From Corynebacterium yonathiae (GTDB taxonomy: Bacteria > Actinomycetota > Actinomycetes > Mycobacteriales > Mycobacteriaceae): DNA of 64,000 bases. The translations under genes were made by a program, and so were the position numbers. Position 1 is the first letter of the stretch; each line of letters opens with the position of its first letter. Where the stretch lies: assembly GCF_022288805.1 (NCBI RefSeq), contig NZ_JAKOPM010000007.1:1-64000 (forward strand), given 5' to 3'. The notes beneath the pieces are model-generated. The model was not told the DNA's origin, did no database searches, and saw only the letters and a list, made by a program, of their open reading frames with translations. This document shows positions 5,178 through 62,192 of the stretch, piece by piece.

Positions 5178-6092
5178 ATGAGAAAAACTATTACCGTCGT
5201 CGCAGTCCTCGTCGTTTTAGCTGTCATCGGCGTGGGCGCGTCGCGTTACCTCAACCAGGGCACCGACTCCCCAGCCCCGCGCCCCACAGAGCAGGCTGCG
5301 CCACCGCCGCAGCAGCAGCCCGACTGGTGCCCCCGTGTGGAGTTCATTTCCGCCCCGGGTACGTGGGAGTCTGCGGCTGACGACGACCCTATTAATCCTT
5401 CTGCTAATCCGCGCTCGTTCATGCTGTCTATAACGAAGCCGCTGCAGGAGGCCTACGGGGACGACGTGAAGGTCTGGACCCTTCCTTATACTGCGCAGTT
5501 TAAAAACATTAATGCGCAACATGAAATGAGCTACGACGATTCCCGCAATGAGGGAACCGCAAAGATGAATGATGAGCTGCGCGGTGTGCACGAGAGCTGC
5601 CCGGAGACCAAATTTATTTTGAGTGGCTTTTCTCAGGGTGCGGTCATTGCTGGTGACGTCGCTGATGAGATCGGTGGCGGCCAGGGTGCGGTGCCGGCGG
5701 AAAGCATTGCAGGTGTGGCTCTCATTGCAGATGGTCGCCGCCAAAACGGCGTTGGCCAAAACCCAGGCCGCAAGGTCGGCGGCGTGGGTGCGGAAATTGC
5801 CCTCCAGCCGGTATCCGGTTTGGTTCAGCCCATTGTTCCGGGTGCCTCCATGCGCGGTGCACGCCAGAATGGGTTCGGTAGCTTGGCGGATCGCACCTTC
5901 CAGATTTGCGCGCCCAATGATTCGGTCTGTGACGCCCCGCCGAACGTGTCTAATGCGCTGGAGCGTGCGCACGGTTTAATTGCCGCGAATGGCGTACATG
6001 CGCAGTATGCCTCCAATAGCGGAGTCATTGATGGCACAACGGCTAACCAGTGGGTAGTGGGCTGGGCCCGCCAGCTTATCGACGCCGCGTAA
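5178..6092 (+). CDS. Cutinase-family envelope lipase (Rv3802c-like)
   Basis: A 304-residue serine hydrolase of the cutinase-like family. One N-terminal membrane or signal segment (about 5-24) is followed by a Pro/Gln-rich linker and the alpha/beta-hydrolase domain. The nucleophile is S152 in GFSQG. The cutinase Cys-Asp signature CAPNDSVCD and the His of GVHAQYA complete the triad. The mycobacterial counterpart Rv3802c is an essential phospholipase/thioesterase linked to mycolate synthesis and lies beside fadD32-pks13, exactly as here. It acts outside the membrane. Gene order supports the assignment strongly; the true substrate is not shown by the sequence. Confidence 0.88.
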   Translation: MRKTITVVAVLVVLAVIGVGASRYLNQGTDSPAPRPTEQAAPPPQQQPDWCPRVEFISAPGTWESAADDDPINPSANPRSFMLSITKPLQEAYGDDVKVWTLPYTAQFKNINAQHEMSYDDSRNEGTAKMNDELRGVHESCPETKFILSGFSQGAVIAGDVADEIGGGQGAVPAESIAGVALIADGRRQNGVGQNPGRKVGGVGAEIALQPVSGLVQPIVPGASMRGARQNGFGSLADRTFQICAPNDSVCDAPPNVSNALERAHGLIAANGVHAQYASNSGVIDGTTANQWVVGWARQLIDAA

Positions 6093-6151
6093 CAACCATT
6101 TCCCCAACTCCGATAGTTTTATTGCCGAAACCATTCACTTAAGGAGAATCG

Positions 6152-7864
6152 ATGGACCTGAAAGCGCAGATGGGGCAGTTCTTAGCGCCCGAGTTCACCT
6201 TGGCCCAGTTGGCAGAAAAGCTCTTCCAAGCGGAGACCAACCCAGACCGCGTGGTGATGCGCCAGTGGATCTACGGTGAAGAAGAAACCTGCCGGGAGCT
6301 TACCCGCTCGCAGGTCAATAACCGCATTAAGGTGGTGGCTGCACGCCTGCAGCAGGTAGCAGATCCTGGCACCCGCGTTGCCATCTTGGCTGGAAATTCA
6401 CCGGAATACGTCTTTGGCTTCTTGGGCGCGCTGTACGCGGGCATGGTGCCGATTCCGCTTTATGACCCCAATGAACCGGGCCACGCGGACCACCTGAAGG
6501 CGGTATTCGGTGATTGCGAACCGTCCATCGTGGTGACGAATCGTGTATCGGCGGCAGCCGTGCGTAAGTACTTCTCTGCTCAACGCGAACGCCCGCGCGT
6601 CATTTCCATCGACGCCCTTCCTGATTCCTTGGCTGGCTCCTGGACACCCGTGGAGGGAACCGCAGAGGACACTGCCTTCCTGCAGTACACGTCCGGTTCT
6701 ACCCGTACCCCGGCCGGCGTGGAGCTCACCAATCGAGCGATCATCACCAATGTTGCGCAGATCTTCCAAGCACTGCAATTGCAGATGCCGGCTCGCATCG
6801 TCTCCTGGCTGCCAATGCACCACGATATGGGCATCATTTTGGCCGTATTCGTTACCATTTTGGGTTTGGACTTCGAGATGATGACCCCACGTGATTTCAT
6901 CCAGCATCCGGATCGCTGGGTACGGCGGCTTACCGCAAGTAGTCAGGCCACCTATGCAGCCATCCCTAACTTTGCGCTGGAGCTTGCCGCACGTCATGCC
7001 AAGGATGCGGATTTCTCGCACGTGGCAGGCATCATTATTGGCTCCGAACCGGTGACGGAATCGGCCGTGGACTCCTTCCTTAATGCCTTTAGCGTCGATC
7101 GTTCCGTACTTCGCCCGTCCTATGGTCTGGCAGAAGCGGCGCTGATTGTAGCTACCCCGCAAACCGAAAAGCGCCCAGTCATATCGCACTTTAATCGCTC
7201 AGAGTTGGCCGCCGGTCGCGCTGTCATTCAGGACAAATCCGACGCCACCGTCGCCTACGCATCCAATGGCCAGTGTGTGCCGCATCAGCACCTCGCCATC
7301 GTAGACCCGGAAACTCGCGCCGAGGTTAAAAATGGCATTATTGGAGAAATCTGGGTCCACGGTCCCAACATGGCCACCGGCTACCTCAACCGTTCAGAGG
7401 AAACTGCTGCCACTTTCCGGAATACGCTGGGTGAGCGTCAACAGGAAGGCCTACCAGAGGATGACTATTGGATGGCCACCGGAGATTTGGCAGTCATTGT
7501 TGATGGTGAGCTGTATATCACTGGTCGCCTGAAGGACCTCATCGTCATTGCTGGGCGCAACCACTATCCGCAGGATATTGAGGGCACGGTGCAAGCGGCT
7601 TCCGCTCAGGTACGCCCAGACTCCGTGGCTGCTTTCTCTGTGGAAGGCGGTGACTCTGAGTCTCTCGTACTGCTGGTGGAGCGCGCCGATGATGCGCAGC
7701 CGGCCGGCGATGCCGAGGCAACTGAGGCCATCCGCACCGCTGTCACCTCGCATCATGGCATTACGCCAGATGACATCGTGTGGAAAACACCTGGCGAAAT
7801 CAATCGCACCTCCTCCGGCAAGATTGCGCGCCGCGTAGCTAAGAAGAACTATGTGGGAATCTGA
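6152..7864 (+). CDS. fadD32: Long-chain fatty-acid--AMP ligase FadD32
   Basis: A 570-residue adenylate-forming enzyme that activates the meromycolate-equivalent chain as acyl-AMP and loads it on the N-terminal ACP of Pks13. The adenylation signature is LQYTSGSTRTPAGV (about 176-189). SWLPMHHDMG, PSYGLAEAAL, ATGDLAVIVDGELYITGRLKDL and the C-terminal lysine region SSGKIARR are also present. A strong ribosome site (AAGGAGA) precedes the ATG. It sits directly upstream of pks13, its known partner. Confidence 0.95.
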   Translation: MDLKAQMGQFLAPEFTLAQLAEKLFQAETNPDRVVMRQWIYGEEETCRELTRSQVNNRIKVVAARLQQVADPGTRVAILAGNSPEYVFGFLGALYAGMVPIPLYDPNEPGHADHLKAVFGDCEPSIVVTNRVSAAAVRKYFSAQRERPRVISIDALPDSLAGSWTPVEGTAEDTAFLQYTSGSTRTPAGVELTNRAIITNVAQIFQALQLQMPARIVSWLPMHHDMGIILAVFVTILGLDFEMMTPRDFIQHPDRWVRRLTASSQATYAAIPNFALELAARHAKDADFSHVAGIIIGSEPVTESAVDSFLNAFSVDRSVLRPSYGLAEAALIVATPQTEKRPVISHFNRSELAAGRAVIQDKSDATVAYASNGQCVPHQHLAIVDPETRAEVKNGIIGEIWVHGPNMATGYLNRSEETAATFRNTLGERQQEGLPEDDYWMATGDLAVIVDGELYITGRLKDLIVIAGRNHYPQDIEGTVQAASAQVRPDSVAAFSVEGGDSESLVLLVERADDAQPAGDAEATEAIRTAVTSHHGITPDDIVWKTPGEINRTSSGKIARRVAKKNYVGI

Positions 7865-7866
7865 TT

Positions 7867-7898
7867 TATCGCTAACAAAGTGACAAAATATAGCGATA
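7867..7898 (+). promoter_or_regulatory. Inverted repeat between fadD32 and pks13
   Basis: TATCGCTA (7867-7874) and TAGCGATA (7891-7898) are exact complements 16 nt apart. The hairpin lies just after the fadD32 stop and about 45 bp before pks13. It could tune relative expression within the operon or be an operator. No U-tract follows, so full termination is unlikely. Confidence 0.45.
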
Positions 7899-7943
7899 TA
7901 CCCCCATGCCATTTAGTAATATCCCGTAACGAAAGACCTTTTT

Positions 7944-10900
7944 ATGACCATCGAGCAACTGCGAGCATGGCTGCGTGACTGGGTCGCCCAGACCACCGGT
8001 GTTTCCCCCGAAGAGATCCTAGATTCCAAGCCCCTGGAAAACTATGGTCTTTCTTCGCGGGATGCTGTAGTGCTATCCGGCGAACTGGAAAATCTACTCG
8101 GTACCCGCCTCGATGCCACTGTGGCATATGAATACCCCACCATCGAGCTGCTGGCGGATCGCCTGCTGAACGCACCAACTGCACCCCAGCCCGAGGAGCA
8201 CGCTCCGCAGATCGCACAGGGATCCGACGTTGCGGTGATTGGTCTTTCCGGCCGCTTCCCGGGAGCAAAGAACGCCCAAGAATTCTGGTCCATGCTGGCA
8301 GAGTCGCGCGCAGGAACCGGTCCGCTCCCAGTGGGCCGGTGGTCCGAGTACTCTGCTGACCCAGTGATGAGCGAAAAAATCGCCCAGCAAAATACCGATG
8401 GCGGTTATATCGAAGACATCGCCTCCTTCGACGCTGAATTCTTTGGCCTGTCCCCTCTTGAAGCTGCCAATATGGACCCGCAGCAGCGCATCCTGCTGGA
8501 GTTAGTGTGGGAAGCGCTCGAAAACGCTGGTGTTCCTGCTAACGAGCTGCGTGGCACGCAGACTGGTGTGTACATGGGATCGACCAATAATGACTATGGC
8601 ATGCTCATCGGTGCCGATTCTGCCGAGATGCATCCTTATGCGCTGACCGGCATTTCTTCTGCCGTGGTGGCCAATCGCATTTCCTACGCCCTGGATTTCC
8701 GTGGCCCTTCCATCAACGTGGACACGGCCTGCTCCTCTTCCCTTGTTGCGGTAAACCAGGCGATGAAGGATCTGCGCACGGGTAGCGCAGACGTGGCACT
8801 GGCTGGCGGCGTGAATATCTTGGCTGCCCCGCATGCATCCACGGCGTTCTCGGAGTTGGGCGTGACCTCTCCGACGAGTGCCATTCATGCCTTTTCTGAC
8901 GACGCCGATGGCATCGTGCGTGCCGACGCCGCCGGCGTCCTCGTGCTTAAGCGTTTGGAGGACGCGGAAGCGGACGGCGACGATATCTTAGCCGTCATCA
9001 AGGGCTCAGCCGTCAACTCCGATGGCCACTCCAACGGCCTGACCGCCCCGAACCCGGAAGCACAGGAAGATGTGCTGCGCCGCGCCTATGCCGATGCGGG
9101 CGTGAATCCGCAAGACGTGGACTATATTGAGGCCCACGGCACTGGCACCATCCTGGGCGATCCGATCGAGGCCTCTGCATTGGGGCGCGTGCTCGGCGTA
9201 GGGCGCGGGGACGATACTCCTATTTTGCTTGGTTCTGCCAAGACCAATATCGGCCACTCCGAATCCGCCGCGGGCGTGGTGGGCCTCATCAAGGTCATCC
9301 AGGCAATGCGCAATGATGTGATTCCGGCGAATATCAATTACTCGGCGCCGAATCGCTATATCGATTTCGAGACCGAGCACCTCGAAGTGGTTGAAGATCC
9401 ACGCGAGTGGCCCGAGTACTCCGGCCGCAAGGTCGCTGGCGTATCCGGCTTCGGCTTTGGTGGCACCAATGCGCACGTCGTGCTCACTGATTACCGCGGC
9501 ACCCCGGCCGAGCGCGAGCCGCAGCTTTCCACCGAAACGGTCGCGTTGCCGGTCTCTGGCCTCTTGCCATCGCGCCGGGCACGCGCTGCGGCCCTGTTGG
9601 CGGACTTCATTGAGGCGGAAAAGCCCGCGCTTGTCGACGTCGCCCGTACCATTGCCCGCCGCAATCACTCCCGCTCCCGCGCCGTCGTGATGGCTAGCTC
9701 TACCGAAGAAGCGGTCAAGCGCTTGCGTCAGGTGGCTGAGGGGAAGGTATCCGTCGGTATCGCTGCTGCGGATTCGCCGCAGGTCCCGGGCCCGGTATTC
9801 GTGTACTCCGGTTTCGGCTCCCAGCATCGCAAGATGGCTAAGGATATGATTGCGCTTTCGCCACAGTTCAAGGCCCGTTTGGAAGAGCTGGACGCCATCG
9901 TAGACTTCGAATCCGGGTGGTCCATCCTCGATATCGTTGAAGACGATGCCCAGACCTATGACACCGAGACCGCCCAGGTGGCCATTACCGCTATCCAGAT
10001 CGCGTTGACGGACTTGCTCGCTTCCTTTGGCGTGCGCCCAGCCGGCGTGATGGGCATGTCCATGGGCGAGATTGCCGCGGCCTATGCCGCAGGCGGCATT
10101 TCCGCCGAGGACGCCATGGTGATTGCCTGCCACCGGGCGCGGTTAATGGGTGAGGGTGAGGCGTCGCTAAGCGACGCCGAGCAAGGAGCCATGGCTGTAG
10201 TAGAGCTCTCGGCCGAAGATATTGCTGCGCTCGACGGAAATATCGAGCCCGCCGTATACACCGGCCCCGGTATGACCACCGTGGGCGGTCCGCGCCAAGA
10301 GGTGCTGGACCTGGTGGAAAAGCTCGATGGCGAAGGCAAATTCGCCCGCGCCCTCAATGTGAAGGCGGCCGGGCATACCTCGGCTGTGGATCCTATCCTG
10401 GGCGAGCTGCATGCAGCCATTGCCGGCATGGAAGCCAAGCCGCTGCACACTCCGCTGTTTTCCTCCGTGGATAAGGGCAAGGTCTATCGTCCTGGGACCA
10501 CCGTGCACGATGAGGATTACTGGCTGCGCATGACCCGCCACTCGGTCTACCTGCAGGATGCCACCGAGGCGGCTTTCGCTGCCGGCCACACTCAGCTGGT
10601 AGAAATCTCGCCAAACCCGGTTGCACTCATGGGGCTAATGTCCACCGCCTTTGCCGTGGGCAAGGCCGATGCGCAGCTGCTGTATGCGTTGAAGCGCAAG
10701 GTAGATCCCACCGAGTCACTCCTAGACTTGCTCAGCAAGCTCTATGTCACTGGCATGCCGGTGGATTTTGGCGCGGTCTTTGGTTCTGGCGCGCGCGTAG
10801 AGGCGCCTTATACCCAGTTCAACCGCCAGCGTTTCTGGACCAATGCGCGTCCTTCGGCTGGCGTATCCGGCCTGCCGGGCGCACGCGTTAACTTGCCAGA

Positions 10901-40733: not shown

Positions 40734-43484
40734 CTACTCAGATTCGGGCGGTTTGGGCGCGCTTTCCGACGCTGGCGGTGCCGGAGCTGCTGGCGGAGCC
40801 GGCGGCTCGTCCATGGGTGGCTTAGGTGCAGCTGGCGTCTGTGGCGGTTTCGGAGTCGCTGGAGGCGTCGGTGCTGCGGGTGCAGCGGGTGCGCTAGGCG
40901 TTGTTGGTGCGCTAGGCGGCGTTGGAGCGGCTGGTGCAGGTGCTGCCGGGGCGCTCGGCGGGGTAGGCGCGCTTGGTGCTGCGGGAGCTGCCGGTGCTTG
41001 GGGAGCTTGCGGTGCAGCTGGCGGTGTTGGTGCCGATGGAGCAGAAGGTGCACTTGGTGCAGGCGCAGCCGGTGCCGCGGGTGCGCTTGGCGGTGTTGGA
41101 GTGGCTGGTGCTTTTGGTGCAGGTGCTGCCGGGGCGCTCGGCGGGGTAGGCGCGCTTGGTGCTGCGGGAGCTGCCGGTGCTTGGGGAGCTTGCGGTGCAG
41201 CTGGCGGTGTTGGTGCCGATGGAGCAGAAGGCGCACTTGGCGCAGGCGCAGCCGGTGCCGCAGGGGAGGCCGGCACGCTTGGTGCAGCAGGTGCAGCGGG
41301 CGCGCTTGGAGCTGCCGGTGCCGAGGCAGACGGGGCGGGGGCGCTAGGAGCATCGGAAGTGGGGGCGTCGGCAAGCGAGGCATCATTGGTACCGGTGGAC
41401 TTCTGGTGGCGCACCGGGGTGGCAAGGAAGGCCTTGGGGTGGGGCTCAGGCAGGGTGCCGGCCTCATCGAGGGAGATGGAATTGCGCAGCATTACAGCGA
41501 CGTCATTGACCTTGGTGGCGGGGGTCGAATCCTGCGCCAAGGACTTCACGCCGCCGGTCATCATGACACTGCAGAAGGGGCAGCCGGTGGCGATTTCTTC
41601 TGCGCCGGTCCCCATAGCCTGCTCGGCGCGGAAGTCATTGATGCGGGTGCCGAGCTTTTCTTCCATGAACATGCGGGCACCGCCGGCGCCACAGCAGAAG
41701 GCTTCGTCGCGGTTCTTGTCCATCTCGCGCAGCTCCACGCCGGTGGCCTCGAGTAGCTCGCGTGGGGGATCGAAGACCTTATTGTGGCGGCCGAGGAAGC
41801 AAGGGTCGTGGTAGGTAATCGGCTTGCGGTTCTCCGGCGTGCGCGGCACAGGCTTGAGCAATCCTTCACGCACCAGGCGGTTGAGCAGCTGGGTGTGGTG
41901 GAAGACGTCGAAATGTCCGTCAAAGTCGGGGTACTCGTTGCGGATGGTGTTAAAGCAGTGCGGGCAGGTGGTGATGATCTTGCGCTGGCCCTCCGGTACG
42001 CCGTCGAAGGCGTTGTTGAGGGTTTCTACGTTTTGCTGCGCCATCATCTGGAAGAGGAACTCATTGCCGGCGCGGCGCGCGGGATCGCCCGTACAGGTCT
42101 CACCTGTGGAGAGCACACCGAACTTCACACCCGCGGTGTGCAATAGGTCTACGACCGCACGGGTGGTGCGGCGGCCCTCATCATCGTAGGCACCGGCGCA
42201 GCCCACCCAGAGCAGGTATTCCATATCGGAGAAGTCCGCCCCGTCCTCACCGATGATGGGCACATCGATGCCATCGGCCCGGGCCTCATCGATCCAGGCG
42301 CGGCGCTCAGAGTTATTCCGGCCCCACGGATTGCCCTTGTTTTCCATGTTCTTGAATAGGCCGGTGAGCTCGGAGGGGAAGTCCGATTCCGCCAGCACCT
42401 TAAAGCGGCGCAGATCCGCGATGTGATCGATGTGCTCAATATCGGTAGGGCACTGATCCACGCACGCACCACAGTTAGTGCACGACCACAGCACATCATC
42501 ATCAATAACCCCGGCCATAGAGAGCACGTCGAGGCCCTCGTGCGGGTTGTAGTTATCCAGTGCGCCCTGGCGCAGATCCATCATGACCTTTTTGGGGCTC
42601 AGTGGCTTCTCGGTATTCCAGGCTGGGCACAATTCCTGGCAGCGGCCGCATTCGGTACACGAGGTGGAATCCAGCAGCATCTTCCAGCTACCCGGGGTGA
42701 TGTCCTCTTCCAAGTCCGGGGTGGGCAAGGATTGCAGTGCCTTTTCACCGGTGGCGTTGCGCTGGAAGAAGATATTGAAAAAGCTGGTGAAGCGGTGCCA
42801 CATGACACCCCACTGGAACTTGCGGGAGATAAAGACGATAAATAGCAGGCCAGACAGCAGCTTGAATAAAGCAAAGAAGCTCACCAGGGCCGGAGATTCG
42901 GGGAAGAGCTTGGCCAAGTGGATGCTCAAGAAATCCGCCCAAGCGGAGCCGCCGCCGTAGGTGGCAATTTTAGTGGACTTCACCAAGATCATGCCGAGCC
43001 CCTCAGAAAAGACGATGAACTCTACCCAGCGTGCGGAGGCAGTCTGGGAGTTGAAGAAGCGGCTACCACGCTCGGTATCGCCAAGCTTGAGGCGTACACC
43101 GATGAGGAAACCGATGCCGAGCACTGTCGCGATGCCCAAGACTTCTTCCACGAAGTGGTAGACCGGCCAGTGGCTGAGCCACGGCCAGCCCTTATGCGGT
43201 GCGAAGGTTTGGATATAGGCCTCGAACCACACCAGGATGCCGAAAAGGAAGCCCACCATCACCAGCCAGTGGGCGGCATTGACCAGAGGTTTTCCCTTGA
43301 AATGGGAGTGGCCAAAGACCTCTGCCAGCACGCGCCCGACGCGCTTTACGGGGCTGTTGGTGCGCTCTAGTTGGGTTGGTCCGCCCGAGCGGATGAACTT
43401 AATGAGCGCGCCTATGCGGGCGAAAAAGTATAGCCACACCGGAATCGATGTGGCTATAGCGATCCAACCGGACACGGTTGTCAT
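40734..43484 (-). CDS. Membrane-bound Fe-S reductase (Rv0338c-like) with long Pro/Ala tail
   Basis: A protein of 916 residues. The N-terminal part (about 1-240) has about six TM segments like the heme-b NarI/HdrE module. Two [4Fe-4S] sites follow, CTECGRCQELCP and CTNCGACVDQCP (about 275-350). Two CCG-type domains come next (GCAGAYDDEGRR..., TCPHCFNT..., CFLGRHNKVF..., FCCGAGGARMF). The last 215 residues (about 702-916) are almost only Pro, Ala, Ser and Thr. Mycobacterial Rv0338c has the same core and is essential; the electron partners are unknown. The tail may span or bind the wall. Confidence 0.87.
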   Translation of the reverse strand: MTTVSGWIAIATSIPVWLYFFARIGALIKFIRSGGPTQLERTNSPVKRVGRVLAEVFGHSHFKGKPLVNAAHWLVMVGFLFGILVWFEAYIQTFAPHKGWPWLSHWPVYHFVEEVLGIATVLGIGFLIGVRLKLGDTERGSRFFNSQTASARWVEFIVFSEGLGMILVKSTKIATYGGGSAWADFLSIHLAKLFPESPALVSFFALFKLLSGLLFIVFISRKFQWGVMWHRFTSFFNIFFQRNATGEKALQSLPTPDLEEDITPGSWKMLLDSTSCTECGRCQELCPAWNTEKPLSPKKVMMDLRQGALDNYNPHEGLDVLSMAGVIDDDVLWSCTNCGACVDQCPTDIEHIDHIADLRRFKVLAESDFPSELTGLFKNMENKGNPWGRNNSERRAWIDEARADGIDVPIIGEDGADFSDMEYLLWVGCAGAYDDEGRRTTRAVVDLLHTAGVKFGVLSTGETCTGDPARRAGNEFLFQMMAQQNVETLNNAFDGVPEGQRKIITTCPHCFNTIRNEYPDFDGHFDVFHHTQLLNRLVREGLLKPVPRTPENRKPITYHDPCFLGRHNKVFDPPRELLEATGVELREMDKNRDEAFCCGAGGARMFMEEKLGTRINDFRAEQAMGTGAEEIATGCPFCSVMMTGGVKSLAQDSTPATKVNDVAVMLRNSISLDEAGTLPEPHPKAFLATPVRHQKSTGTNDASLADAPTSDAPSAPAPSASAPAAPSAPAAPAAPSVPASPAAPAAPAPSAPSAPSAPTPPAAPQAPQAPAAPAAPSAPTPPSAPAAPAPKAPATPTPPSAPAAPAAPAPSAPSAPSAPTPPAAPQAPQAPAAPAAPSAPTPPSAPAAPAPAAPTPPSAPTTPSAPAAPAAPTPPATPKPPQTPAAPKPPMDEPPAPPAAPAPPASESAPKPPESE
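40933..41261. repeat. 146-bp direct duplication inside the Pro/Ala tail
   Basis: The segments at 40933-41078 and 41116-41261 are nearly identical (about 2-3 differences) with a 183-bp offset, exactly 61 codons. It encodes a repeated block rich in APSAP, PAAPQAPQAP and PTPPSAP. The duplication keeps the frame, as expected for a length-variable spacer. Confidence 0.85.
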
Positions 43485-54094: not shown

Positions 54095-54592
54095 ATGGCT
54101 GCCACACCGCTTTCGGCTGACCCGAATCTTCATGACATTAACCTGCACGTTAAACCAGGTAAAGAACGTGCCCCCTTCTTCCGCTATATACGTATCAATT
54201 TGCCGCGGCTTACTCGCGCTTTGATTGTTGCCGTGGTGGCGCTGCAGGCCATCTTGACTTTTTATATAGCGCACACTGATTTTGTGATTTTTCCTGGGCA
54301 AGAGGTTGTTCTCTACGCGATCTCGATTTTGTGCGCCGTTTTCTCAGTGCTGGGAGCAGTAACTCGTTGGCGTATATGGGATTTTGGACTCATTCCTGCT
54401 ATCGGGGCACTGGTGCTTTACTTTGGTGCACTTGCCGGAACACCACCATGGGTGTGGAACGGTGCTGACATTCACCTCGCCGCTGCCTGGAATACTGCTG
54501 CGTTCTGCGGCATTGTCTATTTAATTATTTATTGGGCTTTGGAGTATGGAGTTCTCGTAGCCTACCCCGATGATCAAGGATTTGAGGACTAA
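54095..54592 (+). CDS. Four-TM membrane protein of the molybdopterin operon
   Basis: A 165-residue protein. A cytoplasmic N-terminus of about 40 residues (SADPNLHDINLHVKPGKER) is followed by TMs at about 43-62, 69-90, 98-115 and 133-152. The acidic C-terminus VAYPDDQGFED is probably cytoplasmic too. No cofactor motif is certain. It ends 2 bp before the cytochrome b/molybdopterin gene, so it is probably a subunit or assembly partner. I do not recognise the family. Confidence 0.65.
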   Translation: MAATPLSADPNLHDINLHVKPGKERAPFFRYIRINLPRLTRALIVAVVALQAILTFYIAHTDFVIFPGQEVVLYAISILCAVFSVLGAVTRWRIWDFGLIPAIGALVLYFGALAGTPPWVWNGADIHLAAAWNTAAFCGIVYLIIYWALEYGVLVAYPDDQGFED

Positions 54593-54594
54593 AG

Positions 54595-56097
54595 ATGATG
54601 TTGACTGAGTTTCCCGTTTGGCTGCGTATTGAACATTTTGTCAACATACTGTTTGTCACCCTATTTATTCGAAGCGGAATCGAAATACTTGGGACCTTCC
54701 CTAAACTGCACCGCTCTATTCACACGCCTATAGGCAAGCAGTGGGCTCAATTCTCTATTAAGCAGAAACGCAAGCGTAAGTATTTTCCGGTATCTGGTGA
54801 GTACGAAAACTATAGTCCAATCATTTCTCTACCCGGGTATGGAGCCCTAGGACAGGGTCGCTATTGGCACTTCATCTCCGTGATGGGGTGGATGCTCCTG
54901 CTCGCAATCTATTGGGTGCTCTTGCTGGCCACAGGCCAATGGCGCCGCTATTGGCCAGAAAGCTGGGGTGTCTTCGCACAAGCGTGGGATGACTTAGTCC
55001 ACTACCTGGGTTTTCAGATTCCGACCGCAATGGATGGGTATCCCTTTAACGCTATCCAACAGCTGTCTTATGGTTTTGTCATCCTTATTCTTCCTCTATG
55101 GATGATTGTGACTGGCATGTTCCAATCGCCAGCGATTAATAATCACTTCCCACGCCTCTCTAAGGCTATGGGAGGGCGGCAAGTCATTCGTACCCTGCAC
55201 TTTTGGGGCCTTTGTGCTTACCTCGTGTTTATTGTCATCCACGTAGGCATGGTGATCATGCATGGCTACGGACATGAGGTATCCAAGATGGTCTTCGGCC
55301 ATAGTGCACAGCCGGTTGCCGGTGGAATCATTTTCACTCTGGGGCTAGTGCTCATTGTCTTCATTCATATTTGGGCCACCAAGACTTCTTTGGAAAAACC
55401 GGCGGTAGTAGCGAAGCTACACAATATAGTGGTACGTCCTTTTACGCGCTTCCTGCGGGCCAAAGCTTTTTCGCGCCAGCGTGGCGTCTATGCCGACTCC
55501 GAAGTGACACAAGCGCCTCATCATCGTGCTTCCGGAATGCCGCCGGGTACCGAAGAATATATGGCCTTGGTGTGCAACGACTTTGAGAAGGACTACGTCC
55601 TAGAGATCGGCGGTTTAGTGGAAAAGCCAATGCGCTTGTCCTTAGCAGACCTGCGCCGACTCTCCGCGGGGTATTCGCAAAATACCGTGCACCATTGTGT
55701 TCAGGGTTTTACCTCCTTGGGCAAGTGGGAGGGCGTACCGCTGGCGCAGTTATTGGATTTGGTTAAGCCGCTTGAGGGTGCCTCGGACGTCGTGGTGCAC
55801 AGTTTCCAAAATATGACGCGTGACGATGACAACTACAACGGTTCTTATTATTACGAGTCCATGCCAATGGAAGAGGCCCGCCAGCAGGAAACGCTCATCG
55901 CTACCGGCTACGACGGCGGGGAAATCCCTATCAAGAACGGTGCGCCTATGCGCTTGCGTCTAGAAACCTCGACCGGTTTCCGGTCCGCAAAGTGGCTGGA
56001 CCGTATCGAGGTAGTTAACCGATTCGACATCATAGGCAATGGTCGTGGTGGGTTCTTCGAAGACACCGATAGTTATGACCGCCTGCAAATGCTCTAG
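54595..56097 (+). CDS. Cytochrome b / sulfite-oxidase-family molybdopterin fusion protein
   Basis: A 500-residue protein. The first 265 residues form a cytochrome b561-like domain with five TM segments (about 6-29, 93-115, 160-180, 205-226, 240-262) and His in HFVN, LHFWG, IHVG and FIHIW as possible heme ligands. The C-terminal half (about 320-495) is a SUOX/YedY-type molybdopterin domain. Its Mo-ligand cysteine is C368 in HHCVQGF, and its end is TSTGFRSAKWLDRIEV. Basic loops after TM1, TM3 and TM5 put the Mo domain on the cytoplasmic side. No Tat signal. It transfers electrons between a soluble substrate and the membrane; the substrate is unknown. Confidence 0.8.
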   Translation: MMLTEFPVWLRIEHFVNILFVTLFIRSGIEILGTFPKLHRSIHTPIGKQWAQFSIKQKRKRKYFPVSGEYENYSPIISLPGYGALGQGRYWHFISVMGWMLLLAIYWVLLLATGQWRRYWPESWGVFAQAWDDLVHYLGFQIPTAMDGYPFNAIQQLSYGFVILILPLWMIVTGMFQSPAINNHFPRLSKAMGGRQVIRTLHFWGLCAYLVFIVIHVGMVIMHGYGHEVSKMVFGHSAQPVAGGIIFTLGLVLIVFIHIWATKTSLEKPAVVAKLHNIVVRPFTRFLRAKAFSRQRGVYADSEVTQAPHHRASGMPPGTEEYMALVCNDFEKDYVLEIGGLVEKPMRLSLADLRRLSAGYSQNTVHHCVQGFTSLGKWEGVPLAQLLDLVKPLEGASDVVVHSFQNMTRDDDNYNGSYYYESMPMEEARQQETLIATGYDGGEIPIKNGAPMRLRLETSTGFRSAKWLDRIEVVNRFDIIGNGRGGFFEDTDSYDRLQML

Positions 56098-56105
56098 GAG
56101 TTGTA

Positions 56106-56801
56106 ATGTCTCGAGCACTTTATGAAGATTTATATTTGAGCGCCGAGCAGGTGCAACGGGTGCGCGACTATATCCGCCAGGTTGATTTTCATCTACCTGG
56201 GGCTACAAGCGCGGATTTCAGCATTAACCCGCATGCGCGCTACTTGGGATATATGTTCCAAGGCGAAGACTTGGAATCCTATGGAGTGGGACTCCAGTGC
56301 ACCGCGCCGGGAATGGAACATATGCGTACCTTTATTCGTATGTCGCGCGGTCAGCTGCTTGGCGATGATAATGCTCCAGCACTCCCTGTGAATGAACCAG
56401 TCTTGGCTTCTGAAGCCATGACATTGAACCGATTCTATGCCAAAGAATCAGTTCCGCTGCGCCATGGGGAAGACACCTACACCAGTGACAACGGTGCGGC
56501 GGGGGCGGATATGGATTTGGCAATGTTGGAACAGCAGCTTCGTGACATAATCGCCTTTCATAATGGTGAGCCAGTGCCCGGCAACCAGGAAATCCTAGAT
56601 TTACGCATTTACTGGGGGACGCTCCTAGCGGGTCGGTATCCCCGGCTTCAGTACCTTCAGCAGACCGGCCGCCTATCTTCGCTTCAAGCAGATCGTTTGT
56701 GCAATTTAGAGGCGCAAATCAATGCAGTAGAGGATATTCTGCAAGCTTTAGGTTTACCGACCTTAGAGGATTTGAAGAGGCCCAAACGCGAAGATGGCTA
56801 G
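56106..56801 (+). CDS. Uncharacterised protein of the molybdopterin operon
   Basis: A 231-residue soluble protein starting 8 bp after the fusion gene, with AGGAG overlapping that stop. It is mostly helical, with an N-terminal region (DLYLSAEQVQRVRDYIRQVDFHLPG), two cysteines (LQCTAPG; RLCNLEA) and a C-terminal helix pair (LCNLEAQINAVEDILQALGLPTLEDLKR). No known domain recognised. The operon position suggests an assembly or electron-transfer partner. It ends 6 bp before a convergent gene. Confidence 0.62.
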   Translation: MSRALYEDLYLSAEQVQRVRDYIRQVDFHLPGATSADFSINPHARYLGYMFQGEDLESYGVGLQCTAPGMEHMRTFIRMSRGQLLGDDNAPALPVNEPVLASEAMTLNRFYAKESVPLRHGEDTYTSDNGAAGADMDLAMLEQQLRDIIAFHNGEPVPGNQEILDLRIYWGTLLAGRYPRLQYLQQTGRLSSLQADRLCNLEAQINAVEDILQALGLPTLEDLKRPKREDG

Positions 56802-56807
56802 TGTGAG

Positions 56808-57227
56808 TTAAATCCCCACATGCGCCAGCTGCGCGCGGGTGATGACACTGTTCCAATCCTCGAAGTCTTCGAGGGGAGCGCATAGGCCTTCCCAAGTGGT
56901 AACGGCGACGCCCCGGGCCTTGAGCTCGAGCAGTAGCAGCTCGCGGTCGCCAGAAGAGGCTAGGCGGTGGATCTCGTTATGGGTGATATCGCCGTCGGCA
57001 CCTACACCCACGTTGCCGATGAGACGGAGCCGGGGAGTGGTGCCGGGGCCGCAGTGGGAACCTGAGACGGCGTCGGCAAGCACGCCTGTGAGGCCGGCAA
57101 AGCGTCGAAGTAGACCGAATGGTGCGGTGCATTCGGTAATGAGGTCCACACACATGCCAGCGCTGATAAGCTTTTCGACGGTGGATAGGGCTGCCGCACC
57201 TTCCCCGATGATGGCTATACGCTGCAC
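56808..57227 (-). pseudogene. Internally deleted ferredoxin-NADP reductase (Fpr2-like remnant)
   Basis: A protein of 139 residues where the FprA-type enzyme has about 450. The first part follows the FAD domain: IAIIGEGAAALSTVEKL (for GxGPAG), CTAPFGLLRRFAGL (for PAPFGLVRYGVAP) and LIGNVGVGADGDITHNEI (for GNV-VG--THEEL). It jumps at about residue 92 to the enzyme's C-terminal end, LLELKARGVAVTTWEGL (for LL-RGV-VVTWE). The glycine motif has lost its Pro (GEGAAA), and the NADPH domain is missing. In C. glutamicum fpr2 stands beside cysI-cysX-cysH, so this is the decayed left end of that locus. It is still an open frame. Confidence 0.65.
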
Positions 57228-57265
57228 GGAAGTACCTCCTTGTGTGGGGTGTGGCCACCCCGTAA

Positions 57266-57281
57266 TAGACTGGCTTGTCTG
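57266..57281 (+). promoter_or_regulatory. McbR box upstream of cysH
   Basis: TAGACTGGCTTGTCTG equals the C. glutamicum McbR site TAGAC-N6-GTCTA except for the last base. McbR represses sulfur and methionine genes. It lies 120-135 bp upstream of the cysH start and 39 bp upstream of the divergent fpr remnant, as expected for the cys locus. Confidence 0.7.
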
Positions 57282-57400
57282 TAAATCTAGTCCGCTTGGT
57301 ACGGATTGGAAACTTTTTATTCGCAGCTCCCGCCAAGCTCAGCGGCTTTTCGCGCACAATCCGCTGCACCGCCCCAGGGTTTTGCCTAATGTGTGACGGC

Positions 57401-58186
57401 ATGAACCCAACAACGAACCTGCTGGACGGCGGCAAGAACTACCGCGACCCCAGCATCTCCCCGGAGGGCACGCGCGATACCGCGCCGCTGGACGCCGAGG
57501 TAGCCGCGCGCAACCAGCAACTGGTAGACCAGTGGGCGGATAAGCTGCACGATGCCTCTGCCGAAACCATCACCGAATGGGCAGCCGAGCACGCCCCCGG
57601 CCGCCTTGCGGTGACCATGTCTATGGAAAATACGGTCTTGGCCGAGCTCGCCCACCGCGCCGGGCTCGATGCGGACCTGCTTTTCATCGATACCGGCTGG
57701 CACTTCCCGGAAACCCTCCAGGTGGCCGATGAGGTAGAAAAGCGTTACCCGGACCTGCCCCTGGTGCGGGTGCTTCCGCTTTTGAGCCCGGAAAAACAAG
57801 ATGAGGTCTACGGCCCGCGCCTTTATGCCCGCGATACCGCTGCCTATAACCGCATGCGCAAAGTCGAGCCGCTGAATATGGCGATGGACCCGTATGCCGG
57901 CTGGGTCACCGGTCTGCGCCGGGCCGATTCCGAGCACCGCGCGAGCGCCCCGGCGCTGAGCCTCGACCGCACCGGACGGTTGAAGATCTCGCCCATCATC
58001 ACCTGGGATTTAGACGATACAGACCGCTATATCGAGGACAACGACCTCATCATCCACCCACTTACCTTGCAGGGGTACCGCTCCATCGGCTGCGCTCCGC
58101 TGACTTTCCCAGTTGGTGAAGGCGAAGATGCCCGGTCCGGGCGCGTATTTGCAGACGGCAAGACAGAATGCGGGTTACACGAATAA
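57401..58186 (+). CDS. cysH: APS/PAPS reductase CysH lacking Fe-S cluster cysteines
   Basis: A 261-residue reductase of the CysH family that turns adenylyl sulfate into sulfite. The P-loop-like SMENTVLAEL, DTGWHFPETL, the RKVEPL and WVTGLRR substrate residues, and the catalytic C257 in KTECGLHE are kept. The [4Fe-4S] ligands are not. The CC pair is Y149-N150 (AAYNRMRKVEPL), and the CxxC is C231-APL-T (GCAPLTFP). ATG 57401 was chosen; ATG 57389 is possible. The stop overlaps the cysD start by one base. APS reductases without the cluster exist (moss APR-B), so it may be active or decayed. Confidence 0.88.
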   Translation: MNPTTNLLDGGKNYRDPSISPEGTRDTAPLDAEVAARNQQLVDQWADKLHDASAETITEWAAEHAPGRLAVTMSMENTVLAELAHRAGLDADLLFIDTGWHFPETLQVADEVEKRYPDLPLVRVLPLLSPEKQDEVYGPRLYARDTAAYNRMRKVEPLNMAMDPYAGWVTGLRRADSEHRASAPALSLDRTGRLKISPIITWDLDDTDRYIEDNDLIIHPLTLQGYRSIGCAPLTFPVGEGEDARSGRVFADGKTECGLHE

Positions 58187-59085
58187 TGAGCACACTTTCT
58201 CCACACTTAAAAGACCTAGAAAACGAGTCCATCCACATCCTGCGCGAGGTGGCCGGCCAATTCGATAAGGTTGGCATCCTCTTTTCTGGCGGCAAGGATT
58301 CCGTTGTTGTATTCGAGCTGGCCCGCCGCGCCTTCGCCCCGGCCACGGTGCCATTTGAGCTCCTCCATGTCGATACCGGGCACAACTTCCCCGAGGTCAT
58401 CGATTTCCGCGACCGCCTCGTCGAAGAATCCGGTGCCCGCCTGCACGTCGCCCGCGTCCAAGATTGGATTGACCGCGGCGATCTGCAGGAGCGCCCCGAT
58501 GGCACCCGCAACCCACTGCAGTCGGTGCCGTTGGTAGAGACCATCGCCGAGCGCGAGTATGACGCCGTATGCGGCGGCGCCCGCCGCGATGAGGAGCGCG
58601 CCCGTGCCAAGGAGCGCATCTTCTCCATCCGCGATTCTTTCGGCGGCTGGGATCCCCGCCGCCAGCGTCCCGAGCTCTGGGATCTGTACAACGGCGGCAA
58701 GATGGCCGGTGAAAACGTCCGCGTTTTCCCCATTTCCAACTGGACCGAGTCCGATATTTGGGAATATATCGGCGCCCGCGAACTCGAGCTGCCCTCCATC
58801 TACTACTCCCACGAGCGTGAAGTATTCAAGCGCAATGGCATGTGGCTAGCCCCTGGTGAATGGGGCGGCCCGGCTGAAGATGAGGAGCTGGAAACCCGCA
58901 CCGTGCGCTACCGCACCGTGGGCGATATGTCCTGCACCGGCGCCGTGGAATCTACCGCATCGACGCCGGATGAGGTGCTCGCGGAGATTTCCATTTCCAC
59001 CCTTTCTGAGCGCGGCGCCACCCGCGCCGATGACAAACTCTCCGAGTCCGCCATGGAGGACCGCAAGAAGGAAGGATACTTCTGA
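58186..59085 (+). CDS. cysD: Sulfate adenylyltransferase subunit 2 (CysD)
   Basis: A 299-residue subunit of ATP sulfurylase, which makes APS from sulfate and ATP in the cytoplasm. The PP-loop is FSGGKDSVVVFEL (about 38-50). HVDTGHNFPEVIDFRD, GARRDEERARAKER and the C-terminal RYRTVGDMSCTGAVES are intact. It starts at ATG 58186, overlapping the cysH stop by one base, and its own stop overlaps the cysN start, so the three are translationally coupled. Confidence 0.95.
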   Translation: MSTLSPHLKDLENESIHILREVAGQFDKVGILFSGGKDSVVVFELARRAFAPATVPFELLHVDTGHNFPEVIDFRDRLVEESGARLHVARVQDWIDRGDLQERPDGTRNPLQSVPLVETIAEREYDAVCGGARRDEERARAKERIFSIRDSFGGWDPRRQRPELWDLYNGGKMAGENVRVFPISNWTESDIWEYIGARELELPSIYYSHEREVFKRNGMWLAPGEWGGPAEDEELETRTVRYRTVGDMSCTGAVESTASTPDEVLAEISISTLSERGATRADDKLSESAMEDRKKEGYF

Positions 59086-60368
59086 TGACGACCACCCTCG
59101 CGCCGAATGTCGGCGCCCTCAAGCAGCGCGATACCCTGCGCCTGTGCACCGCCGGCTCCGTCGATGACGGCAAGTCCACCTTCGTCGGCCGTCTACTCTA
59201 CGACACCAAGTCCGTGCTCGCGGACCAGGTCGAGTCCATGGAGCGCACCTCCACCGACCGCGGCTTCGATGGCATGGACCTTTCCTTGCTTGTCGACGGC
59301 CTGCGTGCCGAGCGCGAACAGGGCATTACCATCGACGTGGCTTATCGCTACTTTGCCACAGATAAGCGCACCTTCATCCTCGCCGATACCCCGGGGCACG
59401 TGCAGTACACCCGCAATACGGTCACCGGCATGTCTACCTCGCAGGTAGTAGTGCTTCTTATCGACGCCCGCCATGGCGTCGTCGAACAAACCCGCCGCCA
59501 CCTCAACGTCGCCGCGCTCCTAGGCGTGCGCCACGTGGTCCTTGCGGTGAACAAGATTGACCTCGTGGACTACGATGAGCAGGTCTTCCGCGAAATCGAG
59601 TCCGAGTTCAACCAGATCGCCGCGCGCTTAGACATCACCGATACCACCGTCGTGCCGATTTCCGCGCTCAAAGGCGATAACGTGGTTGAGCGTTCCGCCA
59701 ATATGGAGTGGTATACCGGCCCGACCGTTCTTGAGGTCCTCGAGACCGTCCCCGTCGCCTCTGGCCGTGCCGATGAGCTGGATTTCCGTTTCCCCATCCA
59801 GTACGTCATCCGCGAGCACGCTTCCGATTACCGCGGCTACGCCGGCCGCGTGAAGGCTGGCTCCATCTCAGTAGGCGATGAGGTTGGCCTTCCCGAAGGC
59901 CGCACCAGCACCGTCACTCAGATCGACACTGCCGATGGCCCCGCCGACTCCGCCGCCACCGGTGACTCCGTGACGCTCCTGCTTGCCGACGACATCGATC
60001 TCGCCCGTGGCGATCTCATAGCCGGACCTCAGCGCCCCGCGGCCACCCGCGAATTCGACGCCACAGTCGTCGGTCTGACCGAAAAGGACATCAAGCCCGG
60101 ACAGATGCTCAAGCTGCGCTATGGTTCCTCCCTAGTCAAGGCCCGCATCGCCGCCGTCACTCGCACCCTGGATCTCGATGGCGTCTCCGATGTGGAGGAT
60201 CCCGAGTCCGTCACTATGAACGACATCGCCCACATCACCATCCAGACCCAAGCGAAGCTTCCCGTCGAGGACTACGCCGCCCGCGGCGCAGTGGGCAACT
60301 TCCTGCTCATCGACCAGTCCTCCGGCAACACTCTCGCCGCCGGCTTCGTGGGCCATCGCCTGCGCTAG
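59085..60368 (+). CDS. cysN: Sulfate adenylyltransferase subunit 1 (CysN), GTPase
   Basis: A 427-residue GTPase that drives APS formation by CysD. G1 GSVDDGKSTFVGRLLYD (about 24-40), the G3 DTPGH, and G4 NKIDLVD are present, followed by two beta-barrel domains. There is no fused CysC (APS kinase) domain, so PAPS is not expected to be made by this protein, which fits the use of APS by CysH. No cysY or cysZ follows, unlike in C. glutamicum. The stop overlaps a convergent small gene by 4 bp. Confidence 0.94.
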   Translation: MTTTLAPNVGALKQRDTLRLCTAGSVDDGKSTFVGRLLYDTKSVLADQVESMERTSTDRGFDGMDLSLLVDGLRAEREQGITIDVAYRYFATDKRTFILADTPGHVQYTRNTVTGMSTSQVVVLLIDARHGVVEQTRRHLNVAALLGVRHVVLAVNKIDLVDYDEQVFREIESEFNQIAARLDITDTTVVPISALKGDNVVERSANMEWYTGPTVLEVLETVPVASGRADELDFRFPIQYVIREHASDYRGYAGRVKAGSISVGDEVGLPEGRTSTVTQIDTADGPADSAATGDSVTLLLADDIDLARGDLIAGPQRPAATREFDATVVGLTEKDIKPGQMLKLRYGSSLVKARIAAVTRTLDLDGVSDVEDPESVTMNDIAHITIQTQAKLPVEDYAARGAVGNFLLIDQSSGNTLAAGFVGHRLR

Positions 60369-60719: not shown

Positions 60720-61418
60720 CTAGTACGGTGGTACGTCCCCAGACATAATTACCTTTTGCGCGCCTTCATCCCAACGGAAATCGGCTTGGGTCCTCCCTGA
60801 TGCTGCAGCATTGCCCTCACCATCCTTTGGCCAGCGGTAGGTAACTGCAATTTCGGAATCATCTACGCGGCTAATTCGCGGAGAAAAGCCATATGCCTTA
60901 GCAGTTGCCGTTCCCAGATACTCACCTTTGTGGAAAAGCAGAATGTGATACGGCGAGGAAACAGTCGCCCCTTCAAGCGTCACAGTAATCCATGAAAGAG
61001 CTGCACATGGATCGTATTGAGAGGAAGAAGGACCCCACGGGGCATCAAGTCCTGGATAAGGCTCTACCTGCGGAATGGCCTTTTCATAGGCGGTCTCGGC
61101 AGTATCTGAGCCGCACTCAGGAGACCCGTCGTTGCCTTTACCTCGACGTGGCATGCTCTTTTCCTGTTCCTCCTCTGGGGGAACTTCCGCGACGGTAGTG
61201 GTCTTCTGGGAGGGCTTTTCCTCGGTCGTTTCGTTAGCAGAAGAAGTGGCTGCATCTGCTTCTGAAGTGGCTTCCCTAGCTGCAGAGAAGGTTGGTGAAT
61301 CCCCTGAATCTCGGGAATCGCTTCCACAAGCTGCTAAAGAAAGGCAGAGGATGCCGACGCTAGCTACTGCTGCGGCGGAGCGCGAATGATGTATGAAGCG
61401 GAGGCGGGTATTCAGCAT
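60720..61418 (-). CDS. LppP/LprE-family lipoprotein, copy 1
   Basis: A lipoprotein of 232 residues from ATG 61418 (MLNTRLRFIHHSRS), with GGAAGG upstream. The signal ends in SLAAC, a lipobox. A Ser/Thr/Glu linker follows. The conserved domain (about 105-232) has ECGSDTAETAYEKAIPQV, YDPCAALSWITVTLEG, HKGEYLGTATAKAYGF and AVTYRWPKDGEGN, as in the LppP/LprE family of actinobacteria. Function unknown. It is a close paralogue of the next gene. Confidence 0.78.
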   Translation of the reverse strand: MLNTRLRFIHHSRSAAAVASVGILCLSLAACGSDSRDSGDSPTFSAAREATSEADAATSSANETTEEKPSQKTTTVAEVPPEEEQEKSMPRRGKGNDGSPECGSDTAETAYEKAIPQVEPYPGLDAPWGPSSSQYDPCAALSWITVTLEGATVSSPYHILLFHKGEYLGTATAKAYGFSPRISRVDDSEIAVTYRWPKDGEGNAAASGRTQADFRWDEGAQKVIMSGDVPPY

Positions 61419-61450
61419 GATCTGGCTTCCTTCCACGGAGCTAAGCGTAG

Positions 61451-61483
61451 GGAGCTGTTACTACCGAGAGTAGCAACAGCTCC
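61451..61483. terminator. Hairpin between the two LppP/LprE genes
   Basis: GGAGCTGTT-a-CTAC (61451-61464) pairs with GTAG-c-AACAGCTCC (61470-61483) around CGAGA, with one mismatch. No U-tract on the minus strand, so it may act as a processing or stability element between the two lipoprotein genes. Confidence 0.55.
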
Positions 61484-61520
61484 TATCAAGAAATACTGAA
61501 ATGCAGTTGTGCGCTTCCTT

Positions 61521-62192
61521 CTATCCCGTGGGCGGGACATCTCCAGACATGATGACCTTTTGCTGGGCCTCATCCCAGCGAAAGCCAGCTTGGGTGGTCC
61601 CTGAGCGGTTGGCGTTTCCCTCGCCCTCACGCGGCCAGTGATAGGTCACCGCGATTTCGGAATCACTCACCCGCTCAATGGTGGGGGCGAAGCCATAGGG
61701 CTTGGCCGTTGCAGTGCCCAGGTATTCGCCGTGATTAAACAGCATGATGTGGAAGGGTGAAGAACTGCTTCCCCCTTCAATCATCAGGGTCTCCCACGAT
61801 AGGGAGGCGCAGGGATCATAGCCAGAGGAGTCGAACAGTTCCCAGCCGATGGTCTCCCATAGGGGCACCTGCGATACGCCCTGAGCAAAAGCGGACTGTG
61901 CATCGTCAGAACCGCAAGATGTGTCGGGTTCTGGCGCGGCTTCCGGTTTGGAAGCGGGGTCTTCGTCGTCTAAGAGGACGTTAGGTGGCACCGGACGAGT
62001 GGTTTTCTCGTCCCTCGCAGCAGGGGTAGAGGATGTTTCTTCCTGCGGGGCGTCGTCGTCTTCTTTTGTTGTCGACGTCGGCGCAGTGGCCAGCGAAGGT
62101 TCTGGTGGCGTGGATTCTGGAGATTCTGCAGTACAAGCGGTGAGGACTAGGCCTGCAAGCAAACTGCACACCGGCAGCGTACGCTTAGGCAT
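61521..62192 (-). CDS. LppP/LprE-family lipoprotein, copy 2
   Basis: A 223-residue lipoprotein. MPKRTLPVCSLLAGLVLTAC ends in the lipobox (C20). A long acidic Thr/Pro linker precedes the conserved domain with DTSCGSDDAQSAFAQGVSQV, YDPCASLSWETLMIEG, HGEYLGTATAKPYGF and AVTYHWPREGEGN. This is nearly the same domain as in copy 1 (the C-terminal 60 residues share most positions), so it is a tandem duplication. Its start overlaps the preceding J-like gene by 8 bp. Confidence 0.78.
   Translation of the reverse strand: MPKRTLPVCSLLAGLVLTACTAESPESTPPEPSLATAPTSTTKEDDDAPQEETSSTPAARDEKTTRPVPPNVLLDDEDPASKPEAAPEPDTSCGSDDAQSAFAQGVSQVPLWETIGWELFDSSGYDPCASLSWETLMIEGGSSSSPFHIMLFNHGEYLGTATAKPYGFAPTIERVSDSEIAVTYHWPREGEGNANRSGTTQAGFRWDEAQQKVIMSGDVPPTG

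Follow-up and report, generated by a model that had tools for sequence, protein, structure and literature searches.

A probable cluster-free APS reductase in a split sulfate assimilation pathway of Corynebacterium yonathiae and related corynebacteria

The 64,000-nucleotide stretch of the Corynebacterium yonathiae genome analyzed here (contig NZ_JAKOPM010000007.1; referred to below as the window) encodes, at positions 57401 to 58186 of the forward strand, a sulfonucleotide reductase, CysH, that has lost three of the four cysteines expected to hold a 4Fe-4S cluster. Its most probable identity, with a probability of about 0.8, is that of a cluster-free adenosine 5'-phosphosulfate (APS) reductase in a sulfate assimilation pathway that is complete but divided between two loci. 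In such a pathway, CysDN would make APS; CysH would reduce it to sulfite via the C-terminal C257, with thioredoxin assumed from the family to be the electron donor; and CysI, together with Fpr2 and CysX, all encoded at a second locus beside CysY and CysZ, would reduce sulfite to sulfide. The 4Fe-4S cluster would have been lost once, in the ancestor of a Corynebacterium subgroup, with the ligand site taking on residues like those of the 3'-phosphoadenosine 5'-phosphosulfate (PAPS) reductases. We infer that CysH binds no cluster, uses APS, and is active. Because no damage is apparent in the genes and the remaining part of the pathway is encoded elsewhere in the genome, this CysH is probably a working variant and not a component of a dying pathway.

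Counted from its ATG start, CysH consists of 261 amino acid residues (the list of open reading frames also contains a longer frame that starts at TTG 57275). Y149 and N150 stand in place of the Cys-Cys pair (C149/C150) and L234 in place of the second cysteine of the CxxC motif (C234), leaving C231 as the only remaining cluster cysteine, while the catalytic C257 is retained in the C-terminal ECGLH sequence. The residues read from the sequence agree with an earlier note on this DNA, which had reported Y149-N150, L234, and the preserved C257. The protein matches the Pfam domain PF01507 with an E value of 7.8e-38 and the model NF002537 with 208 bits (cut-off, 154), which makes it a sulfonucleotide reductase; owing to Y149, N150, and L234, it lacks the CC...CxxC signature of four cysteines that marks the 4Fe-4S APS reductases. 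It scores 182.7 bits with the APS reductase model TIGR02055, below the cut-off of 235.3, but this cut-off is uninformative, since two of three cluster-type Corynebacterium proteins, those with all four cysteines, also miss it, with 223.1 and 227.5 bits. Nor does it qualify as a PAPS reductase, scoring 166.5 bits with TIGR02057 against a curated cut-off of 254.2. Cluster loss in CysH is strongly indicated by these replacements, and such a change of cofactor escapes homology-based annotation.

The altered enzyme is widespread in the genus. CysH of the window is 100% identical to that of the C. yonathiae locus L048 and 97 to 98% identical to those of two C. tuberculostearicum strains, which places the window in the C. 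tuberculostearicum group. Among the matches listed, CysH is found in 207 of the 242 Corynebacterium genomes searched; the absence of a match from the other 35 suggests that sulfate reduction has been lost in parts of the genus. The residues at positions 149, 150, 231, 234, and 257 were read in 103 of these 207 genomes, the remaining 104 all having weaker best matches. CysH is of the altered type in 44 of them (34 YNCLC, 5 YNDLC, 4 YNCVC, and 1 HNDLC), has all five cysteines (CCCCC) in 57, and is not readable in 2. Thus, Y or H149, N150, L or V234, and C257 are found in 44 of 44 altered-type genomes. These 44 are the 44 best matches listed for the genus, at identities of at least 74%; CysH proteins of the cluster-type relatives are up to 68% identical among the matches listed. 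The carriers form a large group of species, several of which come from human skin and nose. Those named include C. tuberculostearicum, C. yonathiae, C. curieae, C. kefirresidentii, C. macginleyi, C. aurimucosum, C. minutissimum, C. striatum, C. phoceense, and C. flavescens. Of the 6084 proteins in a protein search, the best 120 divide into 46 with N150 and 74 with the CC pair. The 46 include, outside the 44 genomes, protein P0008 from a 1183-base contig, which combines Y-N with an intact CxxC motif; its residues 1 to 157 are 97 to 100% like the window protein and residues 158 to 261 are 98 to 100% like the cluster type, so that it is evidently a chimera, produced by recombination or as an assembly artifact.

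A tree with 103 rows places the 49 altered-type rows (P0008 included) on one side of a branch supported at 100/99, which lies within a Corynebacterium branch supported at 100/100; the cluster-type Corynebacterium rows are either sister to the altered clade or surround it. All 29 other actinobacterial genomes that were read have CCCCC. Given that altered CysH forms a single clade and that the other actinobacterial rows are all CCCCC, a single loss of the ligands, in the ancestor shared by a Corynebacterium subgroup, is most likely. Sequencing error as a source of the altered state is ruled out by its presence in 44 genomes.

The median pairwise ratio of nonsynonymous to synonymous substitution rates (dN/dS) is 0.115 for the altered-type CysH (34 genes; 397 mutually nonindependent pairs with dS of 0.15 to 1.5) versus 0.213 for the cluster type (8 genes, 22 pairs); the respective values are 0.073 for CysD, 0.163 for CysN, and 0.084 for CysI of the second locus (14 genes). 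Judging from these values, purifying selection acts on all four proteins. None of the 44 carriers has a stop codon within the listed CysH match. In other members of the genus, cysH is split into two frames (G014, L172) or retained only as an N-terminal fragment (G134, L173), and the pathway seems to be decaying there.

The genes cysI, cysX, cysY, and cysZ are not found at the cysHDN locus of the window, as the earlier note had observed. The lack of a sulfite reductase that it reported for the locus does not extend to the genome, however: a search of the same genome for the sulfite/nitrite reductase domain led to contig C62 (stretch L006), which encodes CysI (positions 8486 to 10162, forward strand; PF01077, E value of 3.9e-62). 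It also encodes Fpr2 (positions 6878 to 8233, reverse strand), a CysX-like protein of 83 residues with two CxxC pairs (positions 10159 to 10410), and, in the places of CysY and CysZ, proteins of the CbiX and TauE families, followed by a tetrapyrrole methylase. The pathway genes are therefore split into locus A, fpr2-cysIX-cysYZ, and locus B, which consists of cysHDN and a short Fpr-like gene, mini-Fpr. In C. glutamicum, fpr2 and cysIXHDNYZ are described as lying together in one cluster (PMC1266029).

Locus A was retrieved, through cysI, from 20 further genomes of the 44, and locus B from 34 of the 44. In all 20 genomes, cysI, cysX, and cysY are found without cysHDN, accompanied by cysZ in 19 cases and by fpr2 in 13. 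The split is evidently old and shared across the carriers, with some deviations. In one of the 20 genomes, G032, which has an altered CysH, cysI is interrupted by ∼1.4 kb encoding a transposase-like protein (L136, positions 5949 to 7385), and no other good CysI match was found in that genome. Genome G225 combines an altered CysH with an undivided cysIXHDNYZ cluster and has no locus-A cysI; in G043 and G078, cysZ is located behind cysN. In 22 of the 34 locus-B loci, a gene for an ABC exporter lies no more than ∼5 kb from mini-Fpr or cysH; among the cluster-type genomes, 4 of 9 have such a gene close to where the undivided operon begins. Locus B is probably the original site, with locus A having arisen as a second copy and the two having undergone complementary losses. 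In the CysI tree, locus A forms one side of a branch supported at only 82/93.

The remaining genes of the window locus encode the two subunits of sulfate adenylyltransferase: the small subunit CysD (58168 to 59085, forward strand), which scores above the cut-offs of NF003587 (419.9 bits) and TIGR02039 (405.8 bits), and the 427-residue large subunit CysN (59085 to 60368, forward strand), which scores 569 bits with TIGR02034. Both match their families across almost the whole length, in keeping with the remark of the earlier note that they look intact, and CysN has no match to PF01583, that is, no fused APS kinase domain. A PF01507 search of the genome retrieves only CysH and CysD and no other reductase. 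The best match to an APS kinase in this genome, with 23 bits (Pfam cut-off, 21.1), was rejected as a candidate, as it is Ffh, with an SRP54 domain of 232 bits. With 15 candidates scored per genome, the best match listed for the 242 Corynebacterium genomes is 30.6 bits; 225 of these genomes exceed the cut-off, but most of the matches listed sit at Ffh-like positions 3 to 49. In most genomes from other genera of the family, true APS kinases reach 200 to 237 bits (again among the matches listed), and therefore the search does find real kinases. With CysDN present and an APS kinase not found, the genomic context is that of an APS reductase and not of a PAPS-dependent pathway. By elimination, as neither an APS kinase nor another reductase was found, CysH would act on APS if the pathway runs, and APS can be inferred to be its substrate from the missing kinase. 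The C. glutamicum genome is likewise reported to lack an APS kinase, and E. coli mutants in cysH and in cysC can be complemented with the C. glutamicum cysH (PMC1266029). The suggestion of the earlier note that CysH is a cluster-free APS reductase with a sulfite sink elsewhere thus gains support from CysI on contig C62, the failure to find an APS kinase, and the relatives that share this CysH. As marks of a stable variant pathway, that note had proposed normal growth on sulfate along with a cysI gene at another site and the occurrence of this CysH in relatives; the two genomic marks are both present.

An apparent exchange between the two types of CysH is found in genome G151 (L090, L091), which contains two CysI genes. 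Its locus A encodes a CysI (91% identity) that groups with the altered clade, alongside G016 and G116. At the other locus, a cluster-type fpr2-cysI-cysX-cysH set (63% identity for CysH and 68% for CysI) directly precedes a cysD with 95% and a cysN with 86% identity to those of the window. In this genome, the altered CysH seems to have been exchanged for a cluster-type one by recombination, which would fit the two types of CysH being interchangeable in the same pathway.

Several observations weigh against CysH being a cluster-free APS reductase. The altered-type proteins score 175 to 183 bits with TIGR02055 (four proteins) versus 223 to 237 for the cluster type (three proteins), a drop of about 40 to 60 bits, whereas the PAPS reductase model gives nearly unchanged scores, 159 to 170 bits for the altered type versus 149 to 171 for the cluster type. 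The altered ligand site resembles that of the PAPS reductases, and C231 is retained in 38 of the 44 altered-type genomes. On the side of the substrate, Ffh scores above the Pfam threshold for APS kinases; the weak matches in other genomes (up to 30.6 bits among those listed, 24.4 in the carrier G225) were not identified individually; and a distant APS kinase, too diverged to be recognized, could still be encoded in the genome. Five matches in the genome to PF00459, the PAP phosphatase family, are uninformative on the substrate. Finally, growth without any amino acid, shown for C. tuberculostearicum, a named carrier of the altered CysH, and for C. accolens, counts in favor of a working pathway, but the medium contained not only sulfate but also MOPS, which might serve as a sulfur source, and the sulfate-only assay concerns C. 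pseudodiphtheriticum (PMC11651106).

Three other explanations have to be weighed. CysH could now be a true PAPS reductase, with an unrecognized kinase turning APS into PAPS. A comparison of 89 and 83 different rows (P0008 included) revealed 16 positions that separate the altered type from the cluster type, each with one residue in >90% of either group. The E. coli PAPS reductase has the new state at five of these (Y149, N150, N159, S177, and F250) and the cluster-type state at one, P24. In addition, 6 of the 44 altered-type genomes have D231, a residue also present in the four PAPS reductase chains that were aligned; these are the group comprising L059, L061, L063, and L066 (Corynebacterium sp. 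KPL1814 and its kin, which we take to be close to C. accolens) and genome G107. Yet this explanation is unlikely, given that APS kinase matches do not exceed 30.6 bits anywhere among those listed for the genus, as opposed to 200 to 237 bits elsewhere in the family, that CysN carries no kinase fusion, and that G151 pairs a cluster-type CysH with CysDN close to those of the window. Descent from the PAPS reductase lineage is also unsupported by the tree, which places CysH with the cluster-type Corynebacterium enzymes, although the E. coli protein is the sole PAPS reductase there and sits on a very long branch. The change of the ligand site suggests that an APS reductase lineage may have arrived at a cluster-free site by convergence.

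The decay of sulfate reduction, with the first enzymes surviving as relics, was the other option raised in the earlier note. It would account for the local absence of cysIXYZ, for the 35 genomes of the genus without a listed CysH match, and for the interrupted cysI in the carrier G032. Nevertheless, it is quite improbable in view of the low dN/dS of CysH, CysD, CysN, and CysI, the complete second locus that supplies the missing genes in the same genome, and the stop-free CysH matches of the 44 carriers. The retention of C231 in 38 genomes could also mean that CysH keeps a cluster on altered ligands, C231 plus other residues, but the chances of this are very slim: three of the four ligands are lost in all 44 genomes, C231 itself is replaced by D in six, and no cysteine has been gained at any of the 16 group-specific positions.

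As a cluster-free APS reductase, the altered CysH would, on the best-supported account, work like APR-B of the moss Physcomitrella patens. PDB entry 4bwv, which we take to be APR-B, scores 97.9 bits with the E. coli PAPS reductase and 69.9 bits with the window CysH, where it ranks below six of the seven other matching structure chains; it was not part of the tree. Because 4bwv is nearer to the E. coli enzyme and the window CysH groups with the cluster-type corynebacterial enzymes, the cluster was likely lost independently in the two. APR-B is reported to reduce APS without the cluster cysteines (PMC2275785), an activity that would be shared by CysH; APR-B is eukaryotic, and the survey cited calls APS kinase ubiquitous among eukaryotes, whereas the altered CysH is bacterial and no APS kinase was found in its genome. 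The 4Fe-4S cluster has been regarded as what chiefly sets APS reductases apart from PAPS reductases, and the exception named in this source is the eukaryotic APR-B (PMC2275785). No cluster-free bacterial APS reductase was found in the literature searched, which was covered mostly by titles and the beginnings of abstracts and included few subscription papers.

The E. coli PAPS reductase, too, is devoid of the cluster cysteines and has Y-N at the position of the CC pair, along with N159, S177, and F250, but its genome encodes the APS kinase CysC, no counterpart of which was found in the window genome. Among solved structures, the best match (159 bits) is PDB entry 7lhr, deposited as a PAPS reductase but presumably a mycobacterial APS reductase; it has the same ECGLH end and, unlike the window CysH, retains both CC and CxxC. 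The C. glutamicum CysH (Cg3116) likewise consists of 261 residues and is accompanied by the same genes and no APS kinase, but these form one cluster and all motifs for APS reduction are reported to be present (PMC1266029), in contrast to the two loci and the loss of three of four ligands described here. Sulfate reduction has been predicted from gene content for all C. accolens and C. tuberculostearicum genomes in a study that treats CysH as an APS reductase and, in its available text, makes no mention of lost CysH ligands or a split operon (PMC11651106).

If the assignment is correct, bacteria that combine a cluster-free CysH with the absence of an APS kinase in a single clade would represent an independent natural experiment on the purpose of the cluster, to be compared with the cluster-bearing relatives (up to 68% identical among the matches listed) and with G151, into which a cluster-type enzyme has apparently been swapped. 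A possible reason for the cluster loss might be the avoidance of an oxygen- and iron-sensitive cofactor.

The mini-Fpr gene (56808 to 57227, reverse strand) is divergent from cysH and encodes a 139-residue protein that resembles the N-terminal part of Fpr2 but lacks its NADP-binding middle. Residues 1 to 88 align with the beginning of Fpr2 from the same genome (29% identity over 97 columns, E value of 2e-7). With the end of Fpr2, the similarity spans only 12 residues (E value of 0.34) and is not significant. The description of this gene in the earlier note as an internally deleted fpr2 homologue is therefore unsupported with respect to the deletion, although the product is indeed a short Fpr-like protein. 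No Pfam or NCBIfam match was found at an E value of 0.001, so that the protein does not show the combination of FAD and NADP domains of a ferredoxin-NADP reductase. A fresh deletion in fpr2 was rejected, as the short form adjoins cysH in 31 of 34 locus-B loci (it is missing from L079, L080, and L082). In two of the 31 it is shortened, by a stop after residue 111 in L053 (positions 9412 to 9828) and by an end near residue 110 in L063 (positions 78 to 404). The median dN/dS of 0.236 (31 genes; 5 to 95% range, 0.095 to 0.485) suggests a constrained protein. An APS reductase that shed its cluster and acquired a PAPS reductase-like ligand site while still using APS could have mini-Fpr as a dedicated partner, which would bind flavin or nucleotide and either deliver electrons to CysH or sense the redox state. 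This proposal is doubtful, being weakened by the shortening in two loci and the nonsignificant likeness to the Fpr2 end.

The divergent intergenic region between mini-Fpr and cysH (57228 to 57400) contains a palindrome, TAGAC-N6-GTCTG, at positions 57266 to 57281. It resembles what we take to be the operator of McbR. This is the only site in the window with at most one mismatch to TAGAC-N6-GTCTA, and a site within the same limit is present in all 24 named relatives. Such sites also precede cysI, at a distance of up to 330 bases, in 14 of 21 locus-A loci and in 8 of 9 undivided operons; locus A of the window genome has only two-mismatch sites before cysI. No McbR consensus is given in the available part of PMC2580772. 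Joint control of loci A and B is plausible from this distribution.

Between the ABC-exporter gene and mini-Fpr, the window contains three genes (54095 to 56801), which code for a 165-residue protein, a 500-residue cytochrome b561/molybdopterin fusion, whose matches to the MsrP and SorA models are below the cut-offs, and a 231-residue protein. Among the 24 named relatives, all three are found only in L048, with a remnant of the last one in L055. Behind cysN, two related genes for small secreted or lipoprotein-like proteins (60720 to 62192) have counterparts at varying distances from cysN in most of these relatives. Farther away, the translation of a 916-residue open reading frame (40734 to 43484) resembles an iron-sulfur oxidoreductase and carries a long C-terminal repeat rich in alanine and proline.

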